Below, piece after piece: positions 12,031 through 29,247 of a stretch of DNA of 64,000 nucleotides. A program made the position numbers and the translations under genes. The stretch is from Alphaproteobacteria bacterium (GTDB lineage Bacteria > Pseudomonadota > Alphaproteobacteria > Micropepsales > Micropepsaceae): contig JANXXU010000006.1 in NCBI GenBank assembly GCA_025350465.1, positions 1 through 64,000 of the forward strand. The letters are read 5' to 3'. Position 1 is the first letter of the stretch; each line of letters starts with the position of its first letter. Under the pieces are notes generated by a model, which was not told the origin of the DNA, made no database searches, and worked only from the letters and a program-made list of their open reading frames with translations.

Positions 12031-13761
12031 ATGCAATTGGCCGCGCTGCAAAAGGCAGCTGCGCAAGCCATCGTGAACATATTCGAAACTGGGTCGATCC
12101 GCGGCAACTATGGCGACGTTACGCTGCTGCGCGGTGACTCCGGACAGCTGACCTATGGCCGTTCGCAGACCACGCTGGCCAGCGGCAATCTCTATCTCCT
12201 GATCAAGGATTATAGTGCGCGCTCCGACGTCGCCTATGCCGCGCAGTGCGTCCCCTATCTGCCGGGCCTCGAAGCGTGCGACACGGCGCTCAACACCAAC
12301 ATGGAATTTCGCGGCCTGCTGAAGGACGCCGGCGACGATCCCGTGATGCACGAGGTGCAGGATGCGTTTTTCGATCGCGTCTATTGGGATCCGGCGATCC
12401 GTTCGGCCGACGCGCTCGGCGTGCAGACCGCGCTCGGCGCCGCCATCGTTTACGACAGCACGGTTCATGGTTCGTGGGCACGCATGCGCGAACGCACGCG
12501 GCAAAAAGTCGGCGAGCTCAGCGCCATCGGCGAAAAGGCCTGGATGGCGCATTATATCGACACGCGCTACGACTGGCTTTCGACAAACCCGAACGCGCTG
12601 CTTCACAAGACCGTCTATCGCATGGATGCGCTGGCCGCGCTCATCCGCACCGGCAATTGGAATCTGAAACTGCCGTTCGCGGTTCGCGGCTTCACGATCA
12701 CGGCCGACGCGCTCGGCGAGAATACGGCGGTGCGGGTTCCGGCAGAGAGCGCGCCGCGCCGCATGCTGCGTTACAAATCGCCGCCGCAGAACGGACCGGA
12801 CGTCGTCTGGCTGCAGGAGCGTCTCGCCCGCGCCGGGATTCGCGTGACCGCGTCCGGTGTGTTCGATGCGGTAACCGATGCCGCCGTGCGTGCCTTCCAA
12901 GAGAACCACGACCTGAAAGTGGACGGCATCGTCGGCCCGGTCACCAGATCGGCGCTGGAAGATATTTCGGTGACCTCGCCGACGAAATCCGCCGTGACCG
13001 ACGAGCCTATGCCGGCGGTCGCGAACGCCGAAGCGCGGGCAGTGAAGCCCAGCGCGCCACCCGCCAGAGATGGCGCGCCGGCAAGACGCCCTTCGCCGGC
13101 TCCCGAACCGGAGCCCGCTCCCGCGCCCAGACCCGCGCGATCTTCACCGCCGCCCGCGCCGCCGTCTGATGCGTCGCAAGGCGACGATCCTGTCGGCGAC
13201 ATCAAGCACCACGTCACCGCCGAGGTGAAAGCCGGCGTCGAGACCGTGCGCAAGAGTCTTCGCGACGAACATGAAAAACTGACGCAGCGTCTCAATAGCA
13301 GCATTCAAAACGAAGTGTCCGACGTACTCGCGGGTGTGAAGGACCATCTGAAGACGCGCGGCCAAGCCGTCCTCAAAGATGTCGCCGGCGGGCGGCCAAT
13401 CATTCCGGCCGTGCTTAGCGGCGTGACGCTCGCTTTGACCGAAGCCAGAGATTTCTTCTCCTGGAAAGAGGCGGCGACGAACACGCCAACGACTGGGGCC
13501 GCGAACACAGCGACATCGGCGACGGTTCCAGTGACTGCGCCAACGGCAGTGCAAACCACGATCGACCAGACGACCGCAAACCCGCCCAGCAACGATACGG
13601 TCGCGCAAATCTACACCTACCTGCACAACCTCGCGGCGTCGGTGCCGAACGAATGGGTTTTCCGTTTGCGCGTCGGTGCCTTCGCGCTGATTGCCTATGC
13701 GATCTTCCGCCTCTGGCGCCGGCGCGCCGAGGCTGCAAAAGCCAAGAAGGGAGCGCCGTGA
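12031..13761 (+). CDS. GH46 chitosanase-like protein with peptidoglycan-binding domain and C-terminal membrane anchor
   Basis: The 576-residue product starts with about 240 residues resembling glycoside hydrolase family 46. NIFETGS (Glu19) and LLRGDSGQLTYGRSQT (Asp36) match the two acidic catalytic positions of chitosanases, and further on are FFDRVYWDPAIRSA and KTVYRMDALAALI. A PG_binding_1 domain follows (about 255-315, NGPDVVWLQERLARAGI, VDGIVGPVTRSALE). Next come a proline/alanine linker, a helical region, a Thr-rich stretch and one C-terminal membrane helix (about 540-560) with a basic tail. There is no N-terminal signal peptide, so export and topology are unclear. It probably cleaves a beta-1,4 glucosamine-type or cell-wall glycan. 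Its stop overlaps the start of the patatin gene by one base. Confidence 0.75.
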   Translation: MQLAALQKAAAQAIVNIFETGSIRGNYGDVTLLRGDSGQLTYGRSQTTLASGNLYLLIKDYSARSDVAYAAQCVPYLPGLEACDTALNTNMEFRGLLKDAGDDPVMHEVQDAFFDRVYWDPAIRSADALGVQTALGAAIVYDSTVHGSWARMRERTRQKVGELSAIGEKAWMAHYIDTRYDWLSTNPNALLHKTVYRMDALAALIRTGNWNLKLPFAVRGFTITADALGENTAVRVPAESAPRRMLRYKSPPQNGPDVVWLQERLARAGIRVTASGVFDAVTDAAVRAFQENHDLKVDGIVGPVTRSALEDISVTSPTKSAVTDEPMPAVANAEARAVKPSAPPARDGAPARRPSPAPEPEPAPAPRPARSSPPPAPPSDASQGDDPVGDIKHHVTAEVKAGVETVRKSLRDEHEKLTQRLNSSIQNEVSDVLAGVKDHLKTRGQAVLKDVAGGRPIIPAVLSGVTLALTEARDFFSWKEAATNTPTTGAANTATSATVPVTAPTAVQTTIDQTTANPPSNDTVAQIYTYLHNLAASVPNEWVFRLRVGAFALIAYAIFRLWRRRAEAAKAKKGAP

Positions 13762-16700
13762 TGAGAGAAGATGAAGCGCTGCCGGCCGACGGCGCCGCGC
13801 CTTCGGAGGAATCGCATCCGGTTCATCACAGTTGGTCGCAAGTCGCCGCCCGATATCGCAGCCAGCATGCGCGCTCCGGCCTTGATGGATCCGACGGGAG
13901 TGTCGGCGACCGCACCCGGCTCGCTGCGCCGCGCACCATTGGCGCCGCCTCGCACATTTTCATCTTGGCGCGCCTCCAGCTGATCGTCACCGCCGTTCTT
14001 GGCGCGACGCTGCTTGATTTCGCCATCGAGGGTTCGATGCGCGAAGCGTTGCGCTATTCGGTCGTCGATGCGCCGCAACAATTTCCCGCCATCATCATTG
14101 GCCTTCTTCTAGCCTGTGCCGCGCTGCGCTTTTCCTGCGAGGCGATGATCGAGCTTGTTTCCCCCGACCTCTTCGACGCGCAGGGCAATATCGGCCGCCT
14201 CGCGCATTTGCTGCCCAGATTGCTGGCGATATTCGTGGGCTTTGCCGCCGGCTTTCCGCTTTTGAAATTGGCGGCCGACCAAGACTTGGAAGCGCTCGGG
14301 ACGCAGGACAATCGCATTTTCGCGTTGGCGTTCGGCCTGATCTTTGTCGCCGTCGGCCTCTTGGTGGGCATCGTCGGCAAGGGCCCGCATCTGCGCGCGC
14401 GCGGGATCGTCACGCAGCAATCCTCGCCGATCTTGCGTTGGACGCTCGCGCTCCTTCCGCTTGCCGCGGTGATCGCCTTGGCCGGCACGATCTGGGGGAT
14501 TTTTCCGAGCGACGAGCCCTCGCATTATCTTGGAATTCCGCGTGGCGCGCTCGAACGCTACATGGGCGTCGATCTCGCGCCGGCGCTGATGCAGGCGGCG
14601 ATCGAAGCGTTGGCGATCTTCTTGACGGCAATCGTTGCGCGCCTCGCCTTCAACGTCATCGTCTTCTTGGCGGCGCCCCATGCAATGGGATCGCATGGCA
14701 TCGCCGGCGTGATCGCAGCTTGGATACCGCGATTGGCGGCGGTAGCTGTCGGGTTCGTTCTGACGATTCGGGTGATCGGTCTCTACACGGCACCTGGCGC
14801 GGTTCCTCTTTCCGCGAATGCCGGCTATTGGCTGTTGGGCATTGCCCTCGGCTATTCCGTGATCGCGCTCCTTGCCGCCACGATCGATGGATCGTTTTCG
14901 GTCGTGACCGACTCTTCGACTTTCTTCCAGCGCACCGGCAGCCGCTGGCTGATGGGCGCCGAGCGCATGGCCGCGTTGGACCCAAGCTGGCGGCGCTTTT
15001 TCGCACTGTTCCTCGTGGGGGCAATTGCCGTCTTCCTTGTTTTCTTTGACGTGTCGCAGGTTAACCGCGCGCAGGCGATCGGGCCGATCGCCATCATCCT
15101 CTTGTGGGGCTTCGCGGCGACCGCGCTTTTCTTTCCGCTCGCTTACATGTCGCACGCGACAAGGATGCCGCTGTTGCTGATCTTGCTGATCGCCGGCATG
15201 TCCTTTGCCGGGTTCGACATCAACGACAATCATCAACTTCGCGGTGCCAATTCGGAGGCGCCATCGCTGGAAGCTGCCTTGGCCGCGAGCGCTCAAGCCA
15301 AACCCACCTACTATCGCGAAAACGTCGACATCGGCGATTGGCTCTCGAGTCGGCGCGACTGGCAACAATACGAGCACTACCCGATCTTCCTGGTCGCGAC
15401 CGAAGGCGGCGGTATTCGCGCCGCTTACTTCACCGCGTCCGTGCTGGCGGCGCTGCAAGAAAAATGCCCGGCCTTCGCTCAGCACGTTCTGGCGATCAGC
15501 AGCGTCTCGGGCGGCAGTGTTGGCGCCGCCGTCTTTGCCGGCGAGGCCGCCGAGCAGGCCTCGAACGTCGACTTCGTCGGTTGCAATCTGGGCGCCATCG
15601 AGCCCGGTGTTATCGTCGAGCGCGCCCGCAAGGTGCTGGCGACCGATTTGTTGTCGCCGTTGCTCGGCGCGACGCTCTTTCCAGACGCATTGCAACGCAT
15701 CTTGCCGCTGCCCATCGATCGCTTCGATCGGGCACGCGCTCTCGAATTCGCGCTTGAAGATTCGTGGCGCAAAAACACCCCGCATTGCCGAACCTGCGAC
15801 CCAGAGAGAATGGCCACAAGGGTCGAGGCGCTCTATCCGCGCCAGCAGATTCGCGGACCGGTACCCCATCTCTTTCTCAACACGACGGAAGCGGGAACGG
15901 GTCTGAGCAAGCCCTTTGCGACCTGGGACATCGGCGACCTGGCGCTGCAGGACCGCGTCGTCTCCAAACGCGAAGCGCGAGCCCTCCCGGTGCCGAGGCT
16001 TGTGCCGCTGCAGGACCGCATGGGCACCGACGATGTTCCGCTGAGCGCAGCCGCCATGGTCAGTGCGCGGTTTCCCTATCTGACGCCGGCGGCGCGCATC
16101 GGCGACGTCGGACATTATGTCGACGGCGGTTATTTCGAGAATTCGGGAACCTGGCTTGTCGGCGGCATTGCGCAAAATCTGATCGGCCAGCGTCTGAATT
16201 TCCGCAGCGACGACAAGGCGCTAGAGCGCGCGGTGCACAATTCCGTCATCGTTGCCGTCGTTATTCGCTCCACGCCCTGCAATCCGTGCGGCGACCAAGG
16301 AGAGACCCGCGCGACCAGGGATCTGGACGCCAGGTGGAACGAGATGCTGTCGCCGGTACGGGCGCTCATCTACGCCCGTGACAAGCGCGCGGAATATTCG
16401 ATCAACGATCTCGGCGCGGTGACCTCGCTCATTCAGCGTCTGACGTCGCACGGCGCACGAACCGGAACGCACGGAACCGAAGCGCAGGCGCCGTCCCCGG
16501 CGAACGAGCCGCCGCCAAATTCGAGCGAATGCGCCAACACGATCTGCGCCGTGACCGTCACGTTTCGCAACAAGTCGACGGCGGAAGTGCCTCTCAGTTG
16601 GGTGCTCTCCAGCCGCGCGCGAAACGCCATGGATCAGGCCGTCGATCAAATCTTGGGCGAAAATCTGCAAACGCCGATGCAGCCCAGCAGCAAAGAGGTA

Positions 16701-16802
16701 GAGGACGTCAATCGGCTGGAAGGCTCCTACCGCCGCATCATGTGTCTATTGCAAAACGACCCGACGGCGCTCGGCTGCGCGCCGGCCAAGCTCGCGGATT
16801 GA
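13761..16802 (+). CDS. Large membrane protein with patatin-like phospholipase domain
   Basis: The 1013-residue product begins with a soluble tail, then carries about ten hydrophobic segments (roughly residues 60-500). A patatin-type lipase domain follows: FLVATEGGGIRAAYFTASV gives the oxyanion hole, ISSVSGGSVGA the serine elbow, and GHYVDGGYFENSGT the catalytic Asp. A Cys pair near PCNPCGDQ and a proline-rich insert precede a helical C-terminus. It likely cleaves membrane lipids at the inner membrane. The start at 13761 shares a base with the upstream stop codon, so the GH46-like protein and this lipase are made together. Together they could remodel wall and membrane. The combination is not one I recognise as a named system. 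Confidence 0.85.
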   Translation: MREDEALPADGAAPSEESHPVHHSWSQVAARYRSQHARSGLDGSDGSVGDRTRLAAPRTIGAASHIFILARLQLIVTAVLGATLLDFAIEGSMREALRYSVVDAPQQFPAIIIGLLLACAALRFSCEAMIELVSPDLFDAQGNIGRLAHLLPRLLAIFVGFAAGFPLLKLAADQDLEALGTQDNRIFALAFGLIFVAVGLLVGIVGKGPHLRARGIVTQQSSPILRWTLALLPLAAVIALAGTIWGIFPSDEPSHYLGIPRGALERYMGVDLAPALMQAAIEALAIFLTAIVARLAFNVIVFLAAPHAMGSHGIAGVIAAWIPRLAAVAVGFVLTIRVIGLYTAPGAVPLSANAGYWLLGIALGYSVIALLAATIDGSFSVVTDSSTFFQRTGSRWLMGAERMAALDPSWRRFFALFLVGAIAVFLVFFDVSQVNRAQAIGPIAIILLWGFAATALFFPLAYMSHATRMPLLLILLIAGMSFAGFDINDNHQLRGANSEAPSLEAALAASAQAKPTYYRENVDIGDWLSSRRDWQQYEHYPIFLVATEGGGIRAAYFTASVLAALQEKCPAFAQHVLAISSVSGGSVGAAVFAGEAAEQASNVDFVGCNLGAIEPGVIVERARKVLATDLLSPLLGATLFPDALQRILPLPIDRFDRARALEFALEDSWRKNTPHCRTCDPERMATRVEALYPRQQIRGPVPHLFLNTTEAGTGLSKPFATWDIGDLALQDRVVSKREARALPVPRLVPLQDRMGTDDVPLSAAAMVSARFPYLTPAARIGDVGHYVDGGYFENSGTWLVGGIAQNLIGQRLNFRSDDKALERAVHNSVIVAVVIRSTPCNPCGDQGETRATRDLDARWNEMLSPVRALIYARDKRAEYSINDLGAVTSLIQRLTSHGARTGTHGTEAQAPSPANEPPPNSSECANTICAVTVTFRNKSTAEVPLSWVLSSRARNAMDQAVDQILGENLQTPMQPSSKEVEDVNRLEGSYRRIMCLLQNDPTALGCAPAKLAD

Positions 16803-18723: not shown

Positions 18724-20178
18724 ATGAGAGATCGCGCGCCGTCGAATGTAGCGACGACACTCGATCCGGCCGATTGGACCGAGACCCGCGCGCAAGGGCA
18801 TCGCATGCTCGACGACATGTTCGACTACTTGGAGCATGTGCGCGCGCGCCCGGTTTGGAAACCCATGCCGGATGACGTTCGCGCCCGGTTTCGCGAGTCC
18901 GTGCCGCGCGCGCCGTCAAGTCTGGCCGGCGTCCACGGCGAATTCTTGGACCACGTCGTGCCTTACGCGCTCGGTAACGTGCATCCGGCATTCATGGGCT
19001 GGGTTCACGGCGGCGGCTCGGCGGTCGGCATGCTGGCTGAGATGTTGGCAGCCGGCCTCAACGCCAATCTTGGCGGACGCGACCATGCGCCGGTCGAGGT
19101 CGAACGTCAGATCACCGAGTGGATGCGCGAGATCTTCGAGTTTCCCTCGAGCGCGAGCGGGCTCTTCGTCACCGGCACATCGATGGCGAATCTGATTGCG
19201 GTTCTGGTCGCGCGCGCCCATGCGCTGGGTGGCGACGTGCGCCGAAATGGAGTGGCCCAGTCGGGCGTGCCGCTAAGAGCCTACACGTCCACCGCCGCGC
19301 ACGGCTGCATCGCGCAGGCAATGGATCTGTCGGGATTGGGAACCGATGCCTTGCGCTGTGTCGCCACCGATGCGCGCCATCGCATGAGCTTGGCTGCACT
19401 CGCCGACGCCGTCGCCGGCGATCGGCGAGAGGGTTTGACGCCGTTCCTCGTTGTTGCAACGGCCGGGACCGTGGACGCGGGCGCGATCGACGATCTGGCG
19501 GCGATCCAGACATTCTGTGCCCGCGAGGGGCTTTGGCTGCACGTCGACGGTGCGTTTGGCGCCCTCGCCAAGCTATCGCCCGAACTTGGCCCCCGTCTCG
19601 CGGGAATAGAGCGCGCGGATTCGATCGCCTTTGATTTTCACAAATGGGGGCAGGTGCCCTACGACGCCGGCTTCATCCTGGTTCGCGACGGCGCGCGACA
19701 TCTCGACACTTTTGCGTCGCCGGCCGCGTATCTGCGGCGCGAAACGCGCGGCATGGCGGCGGGGTCGCAATGGCCTTGCGATTTGGGGCCCGACCTGTCG
19801 CGCGGCTTCCGCGCGCTGAAGACGTGGTTCACGTTCAAGACATACGGCACGGACGCCCTCGGCGACATGATCGCGCGGACCTGTTCTCTGGCGCGCTATC
19901 TTGAAGAGCGCGTTCGCGCCGAGCCCGCACTGGAAGTGGTGATGCCAGCGCAACTCAACATCGTTTGCTTTCGCCATCGCGGCGGCGACGATCGCTTCAA
20001 CGCCGCGCTCGTCGCCGATCTTCAAGAGTCCGGTATCGCAGCGCCGTCGACGACGACGATCGACGGCCGCCTCGCCATTCGCGCCGCGATCGTCAATCAT
20101 CGGACCGAAGAGCGCGACATCGATGCGCTGGTCCATGCGATTGTCGAATTGGCCGCCGCGAAAGCAATCACCGACTAA
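18724..20178 (+). CDS. PLP-dependent group II decarboxylase (aromatic amino acid/glutamate decarboxylase type)
   Basis: The 484-residue product has the fold-type I decarboxylase pattern. NVHPAFMGWVHGGGSAVGML lies near the substrate entrance, GLFVTGTSMANLIAV binds the phosphate, WLHVDGAFGALA holds the Asp that contacts the pyridine nitrogen, and IAFDFHKWGQVPYDAGFIL contains the PLP lysine. It decarboxylates an L-amino acid to an amine in the cytoplasm. Substrate specificity (aromatic, 2,4-diaminobutyrate or other) cannot be read safely. It follows the ATP-grasp gene by three bases and is closed by a predicted terminator, so the two form a small operon. Confidence 0.88.
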   Translation: MRDRAPSNVATTLDPADWTETRAQGHRMLDDMFDYLEHVRARPVWKPMPDDVRARFRESVPRAPSSLAGVHGEFLDHVVPYALGNVHPAFMGWVHGGGSAVGMLAEMLAAGLNANLGGRDHAPVEVERQITEWMREIFEFPSSASGLFVTGTSMANLIAVLVARAHALGGDVRRNGVAQSGVPLRAYTSTAAHGCIAQAMDLSGLGTDALRCVATDARHRMSLAALADAVAGDRREGLTPFLVVATAGTVDAGAIDDLAAIQTFCAREGLWLHVDGAFGALAKLSPELGPRLAGIERADSIAFDFHKWGQVPYDAGFILVRDGARHLDTFASPAAYLRRETRGMAAGSQWPCDLGPDLSRGFRALKTWFTFKTYGTDALGDMIARTCSLARYLEERVRAEPALEVVMPAQLNIVCFRHRGGDDRFNAALVADLQESGIAAPSTTTIDGRLAIRAAIVNHRTEERDIDALVHAIVELAAAKAITD

Positions 20179-20335: not shown

Positions 20336-21673
<1,338 letters not shown>

Positions 21674-21678
21674 GCGCC

Positions 21679-22692
21679 ATGGCGACGATGAACATGATTC
21701 AGGCACTGAACTCCGCCATGGACGTCATGCTGACGAAGAACCCGGACGTCCTCATCTTCGGCGAAGATGTCGGCTTCTTCGGCGGCGTCTTCCGTGCCAC
21801 CGACGGCCTCCAGAAGAAACACGGCGTGCAGCGCTGCTTCGACTCGCCGATCGGCGAGGCCGGCATTGTCGCGACGGCAATCGGCATGGGCGCTTACGGC
21901 TTGCGGCCGGTGATCGAAATTCAGTTCGCGGACTATATCTACCCCGCTTACGATCAGCTGGTTTCGGCAGCGGCAAGGCTGCGCTATCGCTCGGCCGGCG
22001 ACTTCTCGGCGCCCATCACGCTGCGCTCACCCTATGGCGGCGGCATCTTCGGCGGCCAAACCCATAGCCAGTCGCCTGAGGCGCTGTTTACCCACGTCTG
22101 CGGCTTGAAGACCGTGATCCCGTCGAACCCCTACGACGCCAAGGGTTTGCTGATCAGCGCTATCGAAGACGACGATCCCGTGATGTTCTTCGAGCCCAAG
22201 CGCATCTACAACGGCCCGTTCGACGGCCACCACGACCGCGCCGTCACCCCGTGGTCCAAGCACCCGGCAAGCGACGTGCCCGATACCTATTATACCGTGC
22301 CGCTCGGCAAGGCCGCGATCGTCAGAGAAGGTAGCGACCTGACAGTGCTCTCATACGGAACCATGGTCCACGTCTCGCTCGCCGCGGCACTCGAAGCCGG
22401 CATCGATGCCGAGATCGTCGATCTGCGCACGTTGATGCCTGTCGACATCGAGACCATCACCCAATCGATCGAAAAGACCGGTCGTTGCGTCATCGTCCAC
22501 GAAGCGACACGAACCAGCGGCTACGGCGCGGAACTCTCCGCTCTCGTTCAGGAAAATTGCTTCTATCATCTCGAAGCGCCGATCGAGCGGGTGGCGGGCT
22601 GGGACACACCCTATCCCCACGCCTTCGAATGGCAGTATTTTCCGGGGCCGGGCAGAGTCGCTGACGCGATGCGCCGCGTCATGGAGGCTTGA
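21679..22692 (+). CDS. bkdA2: Branched-chain 2-oxoacid dehydrogenase E1 component, beta subunit
   Basis: The 337-residue product has the transketolase-like beta-subunit pattern. LIFGEDVGFFGGVFRATDGL, FDSPIGEAGIVATAIGMGAY and EIQFADYIYPAYDQL are followed by the C-terminal domain with IDLRTLMP-like VDLRTLMPVDIETI. It completes the alpha2-beta2 E1 heterotetramer. The ATG at 21679 is five bases after the alpha-subunit stop, which fits coupled translation. Upstream in-frame sequence is the wrong frame of the alpha gene and is not part of the protein. Confidence 0.95.
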   Translation: MATMNMIQALNSAMDVMLTKNPDVLIFGEDVGFFGGVFRATDGLQKKHGVQRCFDSPIGEAGIVATAIGMGAYGLRPVIEIQFADYIYPAYDQLVSAAARLRYRSAGDFSAPITLRSPYGGGIFGGQTHSQSPEALFTHVCGLKTVIPSNPYDAKGLLISAIEDDDPVMFFEPKRIYNGPFDGHHDRAVTPWSKHPASDVPDTYYTVPLGKAAIVREGSDLTVLSYGTMVHVSLAAALEAGIDAEIVDLRTLMPVDIETITQSIEKTGRCVIVHEATRTSGYGAELSALVQENCFYHLEAPIERVAGWDTPYPHAFEWQYFPGPGRVADAMRRVMEA

Positions 22693-22698
22693 GAGAGA

Positions 22699-24012
22699 AT
22701 GGGACGCTTTGTTTTCAAGCTGCCTGATGTTGGCGAAGGCACGGCCGAGGCCGAGATCGTTGCCTGGCACGTCGCCGTCGGCGACATGATCAACGAGGAT
22801 CAGCATCTGGTCGACGTCATGACCGACAAGGCAACGGTCGAGATGACCTCGCCGGTGTCGGGGCGCGTCATCGAGATGCACGGCGAGCCCGGCTCGAAGG
22901 CGCCGGTCGGCGCGCCGCTTGTGATTTTTGAGATCGAGGGCGCGGGCAACGAGAAGGCAACGAACGGTGCGGCGAAAACGGCCAAGCCGGCCGCGGCGAA
23001 AATAGAGCCGCCGCCCGCGCCGAAGCCGATCGCCGCCAAGCCCGCGCCGGCCCCGGCGCCGAAGCCGACCGCGAAAGCGCAATCCGCGCCCGTCGCCAAG
23101 GAAATCGAACACGCGCCGGTCGTCGCGCGCAAACCCGGCGACAAGCCGCTCGCGTCGCCCGCCGTGCGCCAACGCGCACAGGACCTCGGCATTCGCCTGC
23201 AATTTGTTCCGGGCTCAGGCCCTGGCGGCCGCATCAGCCACGCCGATCTCGACGCTTATGTCGCGCATGGCGGCGATACGATCATGCCGGCTTCATCGAA
23301 GCTTGCGCCGCGCGAGGGCGAGGAGCAGATCAAGATCATCGGCCTGCGCCGCAAGATCGCCGAGAAGATGCAGGAATCGAAACGGCGCATTCCGCATTAC
23401 GCCTATGTCGAAGAGGTCGATGTCACCGAGCTCGAAGATCTCCGCGCAAATCTGAACGCAACCAAGCGCGACGATCAGCCCAAGCTGACCTTGTTGCCGT
23501 TCTTGATGCGCGCGCTGGTGCGCGTGTTACCCGAGTTTCCGCAGATCAACGCCCGCTTCGATGACGACGCCGGCATCGTCCATCGCTTTGCGCCGGTGCA
23601 TATCGGCATCGCGACGCAGACGGCGAACGGCTTGATCGTGCCGGTTGTGAAGCACGCCGAAGCGCGCGACCTCTGGGATACGGCAACCGAAGTCGCGCGC
23701 CTCGCGCAGGCAACGCGTGACGGCAAGGCGACGCGCGACGAACTCTCTGGCTCGACGATCACGATCACGAGCCTGGGTCCGCTCGGCGGCGTCGTCACGA
23801 CGCCGGTGATCAATCATCCCGAAGTCGCGATCATCGGTCCGAACGCGATCATCGAGCGCCCGGTGGTTCACAACGGCCACATCGCCGTGCGCAAGATGAT
23901 GAACCTGTCCTCGTCCTTCGACCACCGCGTCGTCGACGGCTACGACGCCGCCCAGTTCATTCAGCGCATCAAGGCGCTGCTGCAACACCCCGCCAAGCTG
24001 TTCATGGATTGA
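22699..24012 (+). CDS. bkdB: Branched-chain 2-oxoacid dehydrogenase E2 (lipoamide acyltransferase)
   Basis: The 437-residue product has one lipoyl domain (1-78) with VDVMTDKATVEMTSP, where Lys44 carries the lipoyl group. An alanine/proline/lysine linker follows, then a peripheral subunit-binding domain (about 150-190, SPAVRQRAQDLGIRLQ, SGPGGRISHADLDAYV), and a catalytic domain ending in SSSFDHRVVDGYDAAQF with the HxxxD active site. It forms the core of the complex, transferring acyl groups to CoA. It starts six bases after the E1 beta stop. A palindromic element separates it from the E3 gene. Confidence 0.95.
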   Translation: MGRFVFKLPDVGEGTAEAEIVAWHVAVGDMINEDQHLVDVMTDKATVEMTSPVSGRVIEMHGEPGSKAPVGAPLVIFEIEGAGNEKATNGAAKTAKPAAAKIEPPPAPKPIAAKPAPAPAPKPTAKAQSAPVAKEIEHAPVVARKPGDKPLASPAVRQRAQDLGIRLQFVPGSGPGGRISHADLDAYVAHGGDTIMPASSKLAPREGEEQIKIIGLRRKIAEKMQESKRRIPHYAYVEEVDVTELEDLRANLNATKRDDQPKLTLLPFLMRALVRVLPEFPQINARFDDDAGIVHRFAPVHIGIATQTANGLIVPVVKHAEARDLWDTATEVARLAQATRDGKATRDELSGSTITITSLGPLGGVVTTPVINHPEVAIIGPNAIIERPVVHNGHIAVRKMMNLSSSFDHRVVDGYDAAQFIQRIKALLQHPAKLFMD

Positions 24013-24037
24013 TGCGCACCGTAAGGATCGCTCGCAC

Positions 24038-24178
24038 CCTCTTTCCTCACCCGCAGTTGCGGGGGAGGTGGCCGAGCGCTGCGAGGTCGGAGGGGGGAAG
24101 TCAGCGCAAAACACTTCCCCCCTCCGCTCTCGGCTTCGCCTCGCGCACCTCCCCCGCGACTGCGGGTGAGGAAAGAGG
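24038..24178. repeat. Nested palindromic intergenic element between bkdB and lpd
   Basis: Two 33-bp arms, 24038-24070 and 24146-24178, are inverted copies with a single mismatch. Inside them is a second, perfect inverted repeat of 14 bp: CGGAGGGGGGAAGT (24088-24101) and ACTTCCCCCCTCCG (24113-24126). The 141-base unit can fold as a branched stem on either strand. It resembles the dispersed palindromic repeats of alphaproteobacterial intergenic regions. It lies within a transcribed operon, so its RNA form may affect E3 expression. Confidence 0.85.
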
Positions 24179-24228
24179 CGCGCCTCAAGACGAGGGCATC
24201 TACCGTCCGAAGATAAAGGTGTTGGCGC

Positions 24229-25641
24229 ATGGCTGAGACGATCAAAACAAACGTCCTCATCGTCGGCGGTGGGCCCGGCGGGTATATCGCCGCCATTCGC
24301 GCCGGTCAGCTCGGCCTCGATACCGTGCTTGTCGAAGCCGACAAGCTCGGCGGCACCTGCCTCATCCGCGGCTGTATTCCGTCGAAGGCGATGATCCACA
24401 TCGCCGGCGAGTTCGAGACCATGCGCCGCGCTGCCAAAGGTGCGGGCCACGGCATCAAGCTCGCCGCGCCGCCAACCTTGAACATAGCCGAAACGGTCGC
24501 GTGGAAAGAAACAGTCGTCGCCAAACTGAACGGCGGCGTCGCCGCGCTGCTGAAGCGCGCGAAAGTCAAAGTCGTCAACGGCTGGGCCAAATTCTCCGAC
24601 GGCAAGACCTGCAGCGTCGAGACCGCGACGGGGCCCGTCACCGTTCACGCCGAACATGTGATCCTCGCCACGGGTTCGGTATCGACCGAGTTGCCGTTTC
24701 TAAAGTTCGGCGGGCCGGTGATCTCGTCGACCGAAGCGCTCGCGCTCGAAAAATTGCCCGAGAAGCTGGTCGTGGTCGGCGCCGGCTACATCGGCCTCGA
24801 GCTCGGCATCGCCTTCGCCAAGTTCGGTTCGCAGGTGACCGTCGTCGAGGCGCTCGATCGCATTTTGCCGCTGTTCGATCGTCAGCTCTCAGATCCGGTG
24901 AAACGCTGGCTCGATAAGAACGGCGTCACCGTGCACCTGACCGCCAAAGCAAAAATGCTGGAGCAGGGCCGCAAGGGCACGTCGCTGATCGTAGATACCA
25001 GCGACGGCAAGACGATCGAGCTTCCCGCCGACAAAATCCTCGTGACCGTCGGCCGTCGGCCACTGACCGAAGGCTGGGGCCTTGAGAACATGGCCGTCGA
25101 CATGGCCGGTCGCTTCGTCAAAGTCGACGATCAATGCCGCACATCGATGAAGAACGTGTTCGCAGTCGGCGATCTCGTCGGCGAGCCGATGCTGGAACAC
25201 AAAGCCGCGACGCAAGGCGAAATGGTCGCCGAAATCATCGCCGGTCATCGGCGCCGCTTCGCGCCCGTCGCCATCGCCGCCGTCTGCTTCACCGAGCCCG
25301 AGATCGTCAGCGCCGGCCTGACGCCCGACGACGCGGCGGCCCAGGGTCTCGACGTTGTGACCGCGATGTTCCCCTTCGCGGCGAACGGGCGTGCGCTGTC
25401 GATGGCGGCCGGCGACGACGGCGGCTTCGTGCGCATCATCGCGCGCAAGGACGATCATCGCGTGCTCGGCATTCAGGCGGTCGGCGCGCACGTCGCCGAA
25501 CTCTCCGCCGAGTTCGCCGTCGCTCTTGAGATGGGCGCGCTGCTCGAAGACATCGCCGGCACGATCCACGTCCATCCGACGCTCAGCGAAGCCTTCCACG
25601 AAGCCGCACTGCGCGGCCTCGGCCACGCCATACACATTTAG
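24229..25641 (+). CDS. lpdA: Dihydrolipoyl dehydrogenase (E3 of the 2-oxoacid dehydrogenase complex)
   Basis: The 470-residue flavoprotein has the FAD dinucleotide motif VLIVGGGPGGYIAA, the redox-active disulfide GGTCLIRGCIPSKA (Cys44 and Cys49), an NAD-binding motif VVVGAGYIGLELG, and the C-terminal IHVHPTLSEAFHEAAL with the His-Glu proton-transfer pair. It reoxidises the lipoyl group of E2 with NAD+. It closes the bkd gene set in the order E1 alpha, E1 beta, E2, E3. A gap of 216 bases with a palindromic element precedes it. Confidence 0.95.
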   Translation: MAETIKTNVLIVGGGPGGYIAAIRAGQLGLDTVLVEADKLGGTCLIRGCIPSKAMIHIAGEFETMRRAAKGAGHGIKLAAPPTLNIAETVAWKETVVAKLNGGVAALLKRAKVKVVNGWAKFSDGKTCSVETATGPVTVHAEHVILATGSVSTELPFLKFGGPVISSTEALALEKLPEKLVVVGAGYIGLELGIAFAKFGSQVTVVEALDRILPLFDRQLSDPVKRWLDKNGVTVHLTAKAKMLEQGRKGTSLIVDTSDGKTIELPADKILVTVGRRPLTEGWGLENMAVDMAGRFVKVDDQCRTSMKNVFAVGDLVGEPMLEHKAATQGEMVAEIIAGHRRRFAPVAIAAVCFTEPEIVSAGLTPDDAAAQGLDVVTAMFPFAANGRALSMAAGDDGGFVRIIARKDDHRVLGIQAVGAHVAELSAEFAVALEMGALLEDIAGTIHVHPTLSEAFHEAALRGLGHAIHI

Positions 25642-26235: not shown

Positions 26236-28215
26236 TTACACCTTCGCGCGCATCAGCATGCCGTACAGGTCGCGCGGATCGTCGGGGTCCGCGATCATGT
26301 CGAGGTTTTGCACGAACGAGGTGCCCTTCACGCGCGCGTGCACGTAACGCAAAGCCGCGAAGTCCTCGATCGCAAAGCCGACGCCGTCGAACAACGTGAT
26401 TTGTTCTGGGCCCGCGCGCCCTTTGGCCTGGCCCGCGATCACTTGCCAGAGCTCCGTCACCGGATGATCCGGCGCAAGCTGCTGGATCTCGCCTTCGATC
26501 CGCGTTTGCGGCGCGTACTCGACGAAAATGTTCGAGCGCAGAAGAATGTCGCGGTGCAGCTCGGTCTTGCCGGGGCAATCGCCACCGATCGCGTTGATGT
26601 GGACACCCGTGCCGACCATGTTGTCGGTGAGGATGGTGGCGTATTGCTTGTCGGCCGTGCAGGTCGTGATGATCTCCGCGCCTTCAATTGCCGCCTCGGC
26701 GCTTTTGCATGGCGTCACGTAAAGACCGGCGCTGGCGGCGAGGTTCGCGGCCGCCTTGCGCGTCGCGGCGGGATCGATGTCGTAGAGCCGCACCTCTTCG
26801 ACGCCGCAAATGGCTTGGAACGCCAGCGCCTGAAATTCCGATTGTGCGCCGTTGCCGATCATCGCCATCGTTTTCGCGTTCTTGGGTGCGAGGTACTTGG
26901 CTGCCATAGCCGAGGTCGCGGCGGTCCGCAAAGCCGTAAGCAGCGTCATTTCGGACAACAGCAGCGGATAGCCGGTCGCGACATCGGCGAGAACGCCGAA
27001 CGCGGTCACCGTCTGCAGGCCCGCCGGCATGTTCTTCGGGTGTCCGTTGACGTATTTGAAGCCATAAAACACGCCGTCCGACGTCGGCATCAACTCTATG
27101 ACGCCGACAGCCGAATGGCTGGCGACGCGGGGCGTTTTGTCGAAATGCTCCCAGCGCCGGAAGTCGGTTTCGATCTCGGCGGCGAGCTCAGTCAAAATGC
27201 GCTTCAAGCCCACATGGTGCACGAGCCGCATCATGTTCTCGACGCTGATGAAAGGCACGAGCGCCAAGTGCGAAGGCGCGGGCGCTTTGCGCGTCGACGC
27301 GGCGTAGCGCGCGATCGAGGACTTGCGCCCCAGCAAACCCGCCGTCAGGTCGACCATCAGGCGCGTGGTACGCCCGCTCTCGTCGAGCGAAGGATTGAGC
27401 TCGGCAAGATCGAGCGAGGTGACGAGGTCGCTCTCGTAAAGCAGCTCCATCACGAGATGCGCCTCGCTCGAGCGCACGCCGGCGGCAACCGCTGTGCCGA
27501 CGCCTGGCGCAATCGAGGGATCGAGAAAATCGACGTCGAGCGACACATGCAGCATGCCGTTCGCTTGACGCACCCGCTCCAGGAATTCACGCAGCGGCGC
27601 GGCGACTCCCCGCTCGTCGAGCACGCGCATATCTGCAATCTCAAACTCGCCGGCGCGAAGGGCGTCCTCTTCCTGTGCGTCGACCGAACGGATGCCTAAC
27701 AAACAGATGTTGCGCGCCGGCACCGGCGCCGGAAACGGCGGGAAGGCGCCAAACCCGGCGCGGCCGGCAATATAGGCAACGGGCATACCGTGATAGTTGC
27801 CCGAGTCGGTCGTCGCGGGCGTGTGAATGTCGGTATGGGCATCGAGCCAGAGCACGAAGAGCGGCCGCCCCTGCGCCTTCGCATGTGCTGCAACGCCCGA
27901 GACCGTGCCCATCGACATTGCGTGATCGCCGCCGAGAAAGATCGGAAAACCGTTTGCCATGGCCTTTGTGGAGATCTCGGCCAGCGCCGAGGTCCAGGCC
28001 ACCGTTTCAGGTTCGCCGTGGAGGCGCGCGTCGGCGTACGCTGACGGCGGGAGAGCGTTGGGCTTTGCATCGCCCCAATCGCTCACTCGATGGCCGAGCG
28101 CGGTCAATGCCTGAGCGAGGCCAGCCCCGCGGTAGGCCGCCGGCCCCTCAGAGCAACCTTTTTTCCGCTTTCCGGAATCCACCGGCGCGCCAACGAGTAT
28201 GCAGGTCTTGGTCAT
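26236..28215 (-). CDS. Bifunctional arginase-ornithine cyclodeaminase fusion
   Basis: One uninterrupted 659-residue frame joins two enzymes. Residues 1-308 carry the arginase metal motifs FLGGDHAMSMG, WLDAHTDIHTP and SLDVDFLDPSIAPGVG. From about 318 the product matches ornithine cyclodeaminase: LALVPFISVENMMRLVHHVG, DKTPRVASHSAVGVIELMP, FYGFKYVNGHPKN, MAMIGNGAQSEFQALAF and IGGDCPGKTELH. The pair would turn arginine into ornithine and urea, then ornithine into proline and ammonia. Separate genes are the usual state, often neighbours. The ATG at 28215 is chosen for its GAGGGA site. It is transcribed divergently from the prolyl-aminopeptidase-like gene. Confidence 0.92.
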   Translation of the reverse strand: MTKTCILVGAPVDSGKRKKGCSEGPAAYRGAGLAQALTALGHRVSDWGDAKPNALPPSAYADARLHGEPETVAWTSALAEISTKAMANGFPIFLGGDHAMSMGTVSGVAAHAKAQGRPLFVLWLDAHTDIHTPATTDSGNYHGMPVAYIAGRAGFGAFPPFPAPVPARNICLLGIRSVDAQEEDALRAGEFEIADMRVLDERGVAAPLREFLERVRQANGMLHVSLDVDFLDPSIAPGVGTAVAAGVRSSEAHLVMELLYESDLVTSLDLAELNPSLDESGRTTRLMVDLTAGLLGRKSSIARYAASTRKAPAPSHLALVPFISVENMMRLVHHVGLKRILTELAAEIETDFRRWEHFDKTPRVASHSAVGVIELMPTSDGVFYGFKYVNGHPKNMPAGLQTVTAFGVLADVATGYPLLLSEMTLLTALRTAATSAMAAKYLAPKNAKTMAMIGNGAQSEFQALAFQAICGVEEVRLYDIDPAATRKAAANLAASAGLYVTPCKSAEAAIEGAEIITTCTADKQYATILTDNMVGTGVHINAIGGDCPGKTELHRDILLRSNIFVEYAPQTRIEGEIQQLAPDHPVTELWQVIAGQAKGRAGPEQITLFDGVGFAIEDFAALRYVHARVKGTSFVQNLDMIADPDDPRDLYGMLMRAKV

Positions 28216-28299: not shown

Positions 28300-29247
28300 A
28301 TGAAATTCACACGCCGAACGATGCTGGCGGCGCTGGCCACAAGCGCACTGGCGCCGAGTGCGCTTGCCAGTGCACCGCAGGTAACCGATGAAACCGGCTT
28401 TGTCGACGTCGCTGGCGGCAAAGTGTGGTGGCGGCGTGCTGGCAAGCGGAAGAAGAAGACGCCGCTCTTGCTCCTGCATGGCGGCCCCGGTTGTGGCCAC
28501 AACTATCTGCTGCCGATGAAGGGCCTTGCCGACGAACGGCCGGTGATCTTTTACGATCAGCTCGGCTGTGGTCTTTCCGACGCGCCCGAGGATGACGTGC
28601 TCTACCGCATCCCGCGCTTCGTCGACGAGGTCGATGCCATACGCCGCGCGCTCGGCCTCGATCGCATCATCCTGTTCGGCAATTCCTGGGGCTCGATGCT
28701 CGCGATCGAGTACATGGTGACGGGCCACGGCAAGGGTGTTGAGAAGTTGATCCTCTCGGGCGCCCTCGCCAGCGTCCCGCAGGCCACAGCCGGCATCAAT
28801 CGTCTTGTCGACAACCTTCCGAACGGCGCTGGCAAGCGCATCCGCGAACTTGAGGCTGCCGGTCAGCAGTCATCGAAGGAGTATGAATCCCTCGTCGGTG
28901 TCTTTTACGCGCGCCACCTCTGCCGGGCGAATCCGTTGCCGCCGGAATTCGATGCGACCGTTGCCAATCTTGCGAAGTCGCCGGCATATCGTGTTCTCAA
29001 CGGTCCGAACGAGTTCACGATCACCGGTGTCATGAAGGATTGGGAACGCCGGGCCGATCTCGGCCGCATCAAGGTGCCGACCTTGATCACCACCGGCGAG
29101 TTCGACGAGGTGACGATCGACTGCGAGGAGACGATTCAACAAGGCATCGCCGGATCGCAGCTCGTCGTCATGCCCGATTGTTCGCATCTGACGATGTTGG
29201 AAAAGCCCGACGAATATAACGCCATCATCCGCCGGTTCATCACATAG
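28300..29247 (+). CDS. Exported alpha/beta hydrolase, proline iminopeptidase-like
   Basis: The 315-residue product has a twin-arginine leader (FTRRTMLAALATSALAPSALA). The hydrolase fold shows LLLHGGPGCGHNYLLP (oxyanion hole, HGGPG), FGNSWGSMLAIEY (serine nucleophile), TTGEFDEVT (acid) and DCSHLTMLEKP (His). HGGPG and GNSWGS are typical of the prolyl-aminopeptidase branch. The protein would act in the periplasm, releasing N-terminal proline from peptides or cleaving a similar small substrate. Its neighbour makes proline from arginine, which is suggestive but may be chance. GGGGAAGG precedes the ATG. Its end overlaps the DUF72 gene by eight bases, tail to tail. Confidence 0.85.
   Translation: MKFTRRTMLAALATSALAPSALASAPQVTDETGFVDVAGGKVWWRRAGKRKKKTPLLLLHGGPGCGHNYLLPMKGLADERPVIFYDQLGCGLSDAPEDDVLYRIPRFVDEVDAIRRALGLDRIILFGNSWGSMLAIEYMVTGHGKGVEKLILSGALASVPQATAGINRLVDNLPNGAGKRIRELEAAGQQSSKEYESLVGVFYARHLCRANPLPPEFDATVANLAKSPAYRVLNGPNEFTITGVMKDWERRADLGRIKVPTLITTGEFDEVTIDCEETIQQGIAGSQLVVMPDCSHLTMLEKPDEYNAIIRRFIT

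Follow-up and report, generated by a model that had tools for sequence, protein, structure and literature searches.

One known single protein that takes arginine to proline is cyanobacterial AgrE (ArgZ), in which an arginine-degrading activity is followed by an ornithine cyclodeaminase (OCD) activity in one polypeptide and the resulting proline is oxidised by PutA (PMC8262935). The first activity of AgrE is an arginine dihydrolase, and its route yields CO2 and three ammonium ions without urea (PMC8262935). Also close to the gene described here are the adjacent rocF-ocd gene pairs of Alphaproteobacteria, which share the pathway proposed here, from arginine through ornithine to proline (PMC4575208). 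We analysed a stretch of 64,000 nucleotides, called the window below (positions 1-64,000 of contig JANXXU010000006.1, assembly GCA_025350465.1, from an Alphaproteobacteria bacterium of the Micropepsaceae), in which these two enzyme families are encoded by one gene with the following features:

26236..28215, minus strand: fused arginase-OCD gene, 659 codons plus stop, ATG start; architecture shared with a second species (G088)
27325..28215, minus strand: arginase domain, residues 1-297; matches to PF00491 and TIGR01229, metal and catalytic residues, structural match to 2cev
27466..27486, minus strand: remodelled arginase loop, residues 244-250; AAGVRSS, as against PGGATFR in unfused relatives
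27286..27324, minus strand: linker, residues 298-310 (KSSIARYAASTRK); junction alignment, frame comparison with the unfused relative G093, low pLDDT at 300-314
27283..27285, minus strand: former OCD start codon, now GCG (Ala311); GTG in G088, ATG in unfused relatives of the genus
26239..27285, minus strand: OCD domain, residues 311-659; matches to PF02423, NF005762 and 1u7h, structural match to 1x7d

One reading frame for arginase and ornithine cyclodeaminase

The original prediction placed an arginase and an OCD in a single 659-codon frame, and this was borne out by Pfam, by both NCBIfam equivalog profiles and by the recurrence of the same fusion in G088. The frame runs from an ATG at 28215 to a stop codon at 26238-26236 and encodes 659 amino acids with no internal stop. 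The only Pfam domains found in the protein are Arginase (PF00491, residues 4-293, E = 2.6e-65) and OCD_Mu_crystall (PF02423, residues 326-632, E = 6.9e-129). The arginase equivalog TIGR01229 scored 265.7 bits (cut-off 227.6), and the OCD equivalog NF005762 scored 576.5 bits (cut-off 350) over positions 1-334 of its 334-position profile. All six arginase metal ligands (H98, D125, H127, D129, D227 and D229) are present, as are the catalytic residues H142 and E272 and the active-site residue T241. On the OCD side, R363, E374, K387, T402, R430 and D546 align with the active site of the Pseudomonas putida enzyme and are invariant in a 28-sequence alignment; we take their roles to be those described in the 1u7h work. 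The closest solved relatives are the P. putida OCD 1u7h (E = 5e-121) and arginases of Thermus and Bacillus.

An AlphaFold2 model of the fused protein (mean pLDDT 81, pTM 0.51) superimposes on known structures, domain by domain: the arginase domain matches Bacillus caldovelox 2cev with Z = 41.0 and an rmsd of 2.1 over 290 residues, and the OCD domain matches 1x7d with Z = 38.4 and an rmsd of 3.2 over 322 residues, at 54% identity. Residues 300-314 have pLDDT values below 50, and the linker is predicted to be disordered. Because a pTM of 0.51 does not fix the relative placement of the two domains, the model is silent on the ornithine channelling that the original prediction proposed.

The fused gene of G088, which comes from an independent assembly of a second species in the same genus, also encodes 659 amino acids in the same architecture, and its product is 85% identical to that of the window; the two linkers differ by no indel, and neither contains a stop. 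Synonymous divergence between the two genes (Nei-Gojobori) approaches saturation at about 1.08 in the arginase, 0.92 in a 20-codon linker segment and 0.81 in the OCD, and the corresponding pN/pS ratios are 0.21, 0.31 and 0.11, the linker figures resting on 16 differences. The low pN/pS and the absence of indels indicate that both halves are under purifying selection, and a frame that has stayed open for so long in both lineages is no sequencing error.

Elsewhere in the genus the two enzymes are separate. Seven members (G087 and G089-G094) and a member of the sister genus (G008) carry two adjacent genes with a stop codon between them, and no arginase or OCD match was obtained in the incomplete genomes G085 and G086. 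The adjacent rocF-ocd pair is common across Alphaproteobacteria, on chromosomes and plasmids alike, and some unfused pairs adjoin transport genes or an Lrp-type regulator. The earlier statement that these enzymes are normally separate agrees with our census, in which the intervening stop was absent from only three of 107 adjacent pairs: the window, G088 and a Roseovarius metagenome-assembled genome (L102). The last of these was rejected as a true fusion and attributed to a frame error, since the ribosome site, the ATG and, in another frame, the VFDRPT tail are all kept. This locus (L102:2204-5992, Roseovarius MAG FR_34) reads as an apparent 1262-residue fusion in which arginase, OCD and further genes are joined, and looks like the product of assembly frame errors.

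Protein searches covered samples of 96 genomes from the family, 385 from the class and 398 from the phylum, with some overlap between them. Neither these searches, nor the best 80 matches of a pattern scan over 84,980 species, nor the features named in the top 60 plasmid records yielded any further arginase-OCD fusion besides L102; an order-level search brought back family genomes only. In many unfused pairs, such as L065, L121 and L142, the genes overlap or lie a few bases apart. A small change could fuse many of these close pairs; that fusions were nonetheless so rarely encountered hints that they are selected against.

Predicted function and the altered arginase half

We consider it probable, at roughly 80%, that the gene encodes a bifunctional arginine-catabolic enzyme that arose from an adjacent rocF-ocd pair through a one-base deletion. 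The fusion and its conservation, the unbroken set of catalytic residues, the existence of relatives with separate genes and a locus lacking the gene are all visible in the sequences, whereas two activities in one protein, a flux towards proline and any advantage of proximity are inferred. With two manganese ions presumably bound, the N-terminal arginase would convert L-arginine to urea and L-ornithine, and the C-terminal NAD-dependent OCD would convert the ornithine to L-proline and ammonia. The L-proline could then be oxidised to glutamate by PutA encoded elsewhere in the genome, where a PutA-like proline dehydrogenase is present. ProC is present as well, so the fused enzyme is not needed for proline synthesis. 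In the 98% complete assembly no match of urease grade was found, nor any urea carboxylase above the cut-off; a weak urease-alpha match (24.1 bits) is confined to one segment of a 457-codon frame. These gene contents would best fit a catabolic role in which arginine is degraded through proline to glutamate and urea remains as a by-product.

The two halves have not changed to the same extent. In separate trees of the arginase and OCD domains, the window and G088 proteins are sisters (SH-aLRT 100 and 97, respectively), and in both trees they nest within a clade of the family's own genes, indicating that both halves derive from a resident pair, with neither imported separately. The stem leading to the two fused proteins measures 0.35 changes per column in the arginase tree versus 0.069 in the OCD tree, and 6 of 75 arginase columns that are invariant in the unfused rows are changed in the fused proteins, compared with 1 of 133 OCD columns.

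The clearest arginase change is in the loop at residues 244-250, where PGGATFRE (including the following residue) has become AAGVRSSE; the loop reads AAGVRSS in the window and SAGVRSS in G088. P244, G245, T248 and R250 are found in 26/26 unfused relatives and are altered in both fused proteins. The GG-x-[TS]-x-RE motif to which they belong, a motif conserved in this clade but not family-defining for arginase, is lost in the fused pair only (108 of 111 pairs could be parsed at this region). This loss falls on the same branch as the fusion. A compensated frameshift was considered as the cause of the loop change, and a gapped alignment raised the score only slightly. The loop aligns with about residues 249-256 of human arginase 1, of which R255 and E256 presumably lie close to a subunit interface. 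The C-terminal tails of arginases control their oligomer state (PMC7925462, PMC6988801). With its tail lost and this loop changed, the fused arginase has likely had its subunit assembly remodelled. A bolder proposal, that this is an unreported natural fusion with a rebuilt arginase interface whose domains form a shared assembly handing ornithine between active sites, is in our view doubtful.

The long arginase stem branch and the changed loop also mean that the arginase activity or its substrate may have shifted. The arginase half might then act on another guanidino compound, or be inactive, and the protein would work mainly as an OCD. This reading draws on the long branch and on the replacement of all five of the almost invariant residues P244, G245, A247, T248 and R250, close in sequence to T241; we nevertheless judge it unlikely, because the metal ligands, the His142 and Glu272 equivalents and T241 itself are all retained, purifying selection on the arginase half persists between the two fused genes (pN/pS 0.21), the TIGR01229 cut-off is exceeded and the genome contains no second arginase match. 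The fused gene is, in fact, the sole close match to either enzyme in its own genome, and a bifunctional enzyme remains the reading that we favour.

Origin of the junction and genomic setting

The fusion presumably began from a plain side-by-side rocF-ocd pair, in the ancestor that G088 shares with the window species. In the unfused relatives of the genus, the arginase ends in GRKVFDRPT followed shortly by a stop codon, and the OCD begins just upstream of a PS-x-LALVPF motif. The distance from the Lys298 codon to LALVPF is 57 nucleotides in both fused genes; it is 58 (G092), 64 (G093) and 67 nucleotides (G089) in three relatives, all 1 modulo 3, and it is 2 modulo 3 in G087, G090, G091 and G094. 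In the junction alignment both fused genes lack one base right behind the codon for this lysine, at position 27322/27321 of the window. When the ocd frame of G093 is extended upstream it reads CSIARHAA, the counterpart of SSIARYAA in the window, and the fused junctions lack the arginase stop, a recognisable ribosome site and the ATG. The fusion thus most likely goes back to the deletion of a single base immediately behind arginase codon 298, the exact event being a reconstruction from these alignments. Such a deletion after the GRK motif would have carried the arginase frame past its stop and into the ocd frame. The linker is most likely a shifted-frame translation of the former arginase tail and the spacer DNA behind it, with "VFDRPTR" now "SSIARYAA"; in the course of this change, the start codon and ribosome site of the OCD would have been lost.

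These junctions also bear on whether, besides the fused protein, translation initiating inside the gene close to the former start codon yields a separate OCD. A GTG stands at the old start codon in G088, and a TTG lies six codons downstream in both species; however, the window has GCG at the former start, the ribosome site of several unfused relatives (e.g., AAGGA or GGAG) is missing from both fused junctions, and no sigma-70-like promoter was found inside the gene (a weak test), leaving only a slim chance that two products are made. Hardly credible is the view that a base missing from the assembly data joins two real genes: a one-base frame shift after window codon 297/298 would indeed yield a VLDR-like tail, and L102 is an example of such errors, but the same junction was found independently in G088, the alternative frame has no nearby stop (the first one comes at codon 341 of the window gene and 378 of the G088 gene), and the ATG and ribosome site that L102 keeps are gone from the fused junctions. 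The concern that a stop codon had been lost between the domains through a sequencing artefact is answered by this comparison, the G088 junction being equally open.

The fused gene also occupies a different place in the genome. In G088 it lies between lpd and a DUF72 gene, an interval that in the window also holds a membrane-protein gene and a gene for a proline-iminopeptidase-like hydrolase; on a short contig of G085, lpd and the DUF72 gene are about 12 bp apart with nothing between them. None of the flanking window genes searched adjoins unfused pairs. The site is new in the window and G088 and empty in G085, and thus the fusion and the relocation map to the same branch. Unlike in several unfused operons, neither an arginine transporter nor an Lrp-type regulator was recognised among the neighbouring genes that the analysis covered.

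Other features of the window were recorded as well. The hydrolase of the proline-iminopeptidase family (28300-29247) is divergent from the fused gene and missing at the corresponding place in G088, so it probably arrived later in the window, or else was lost in G088. The fused gene adjoins four genes for a branched-chain 2-oxoacid dehydrogenase complex (E1 alpha, E1 beta, E2 and E3; 20348-25641), which are preceded by a gene for a PLP-dependent decarboxylase (18724-20178). A strong AT skew (-0.21) occurs at 14001-16000, inside a 1049-codon frame at 13653-16802.

The states before and after the fusion both survive in one genus, which makes it possible to follow the making of a fusion enzyme almost nucleotide by nucleotide. 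The fused gene and its unfused relatives make the effects of fusion on oligomer state, arginase kinetics and ornithine release testable at the bench, and such a fusion would be a ready-made part for making proline from arginine.

Comparison with known systems

The rocF-ocd pairs of Alphaproteobacteria, including the arginase and OCD of nopaline Ti plasmid regions, belong to the same two enzyme families and stand in the same order in the pairs examined, with domains roughly 50-89% identical to those of the fused protein. They differ in comprising two genes with a stop and usually a ribosome site and start between them, whereas the fused gene encodes one polypeptide at a different locus. Some pairs carry an extra gene between the two, namely CtlX in Aliiroseovarius and an opine dehydrogenase in Agrobacterium. 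In Ruegeria and Pseudohalocynthiibacter (L119, L122, L130, L132, L134, L136, L137, L139 and L145), about 0.9 kb separates arginase and OCD; this insert is probably one gene, annotated CtlX in similar Aliiroseovarius plasmids. The open-access literature searched contained no report of a natural arginase-OCD fusion.

Stand-alone arginases (B. caldovelox 2cev and Thermus 2ef5) share the fold, the metal ligands and the catalytic His and Glu with the fused protein, which in contrast has a linker to the OCD in place of a C-terminal tail and lacks the GG-x-[TS]-x-RE loop. The OCD of P. putida (1u7h, 1x7d) matches over its full length with 54% identity and the same active-site residues, but is a stand-alone protein.

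AgrE and the fused protein are alike in placing sequential arginine-to-proline steps in one chain, as predicted for the latter. The first domain of the fused protein is nevertheless a PF00491 arginase, and the amidinotransferase-type dihydrolase of AgrE is absent. Since profile and ligands identify this domain as a true, metal-dependent arginase, the fused protein is not a member of the AgrE family, in keeping with the original prediction that the two are distinct. The C-terminal domain of AgrE, too, belongs to a different, LOR/SDH-type family. The fused protein is most likely an analogue of AgrE from different families. If bifunctional, it would represent a second, independent natural one-protein route from arginine to proline beside AgrE, with unrelated first-step chemistry.
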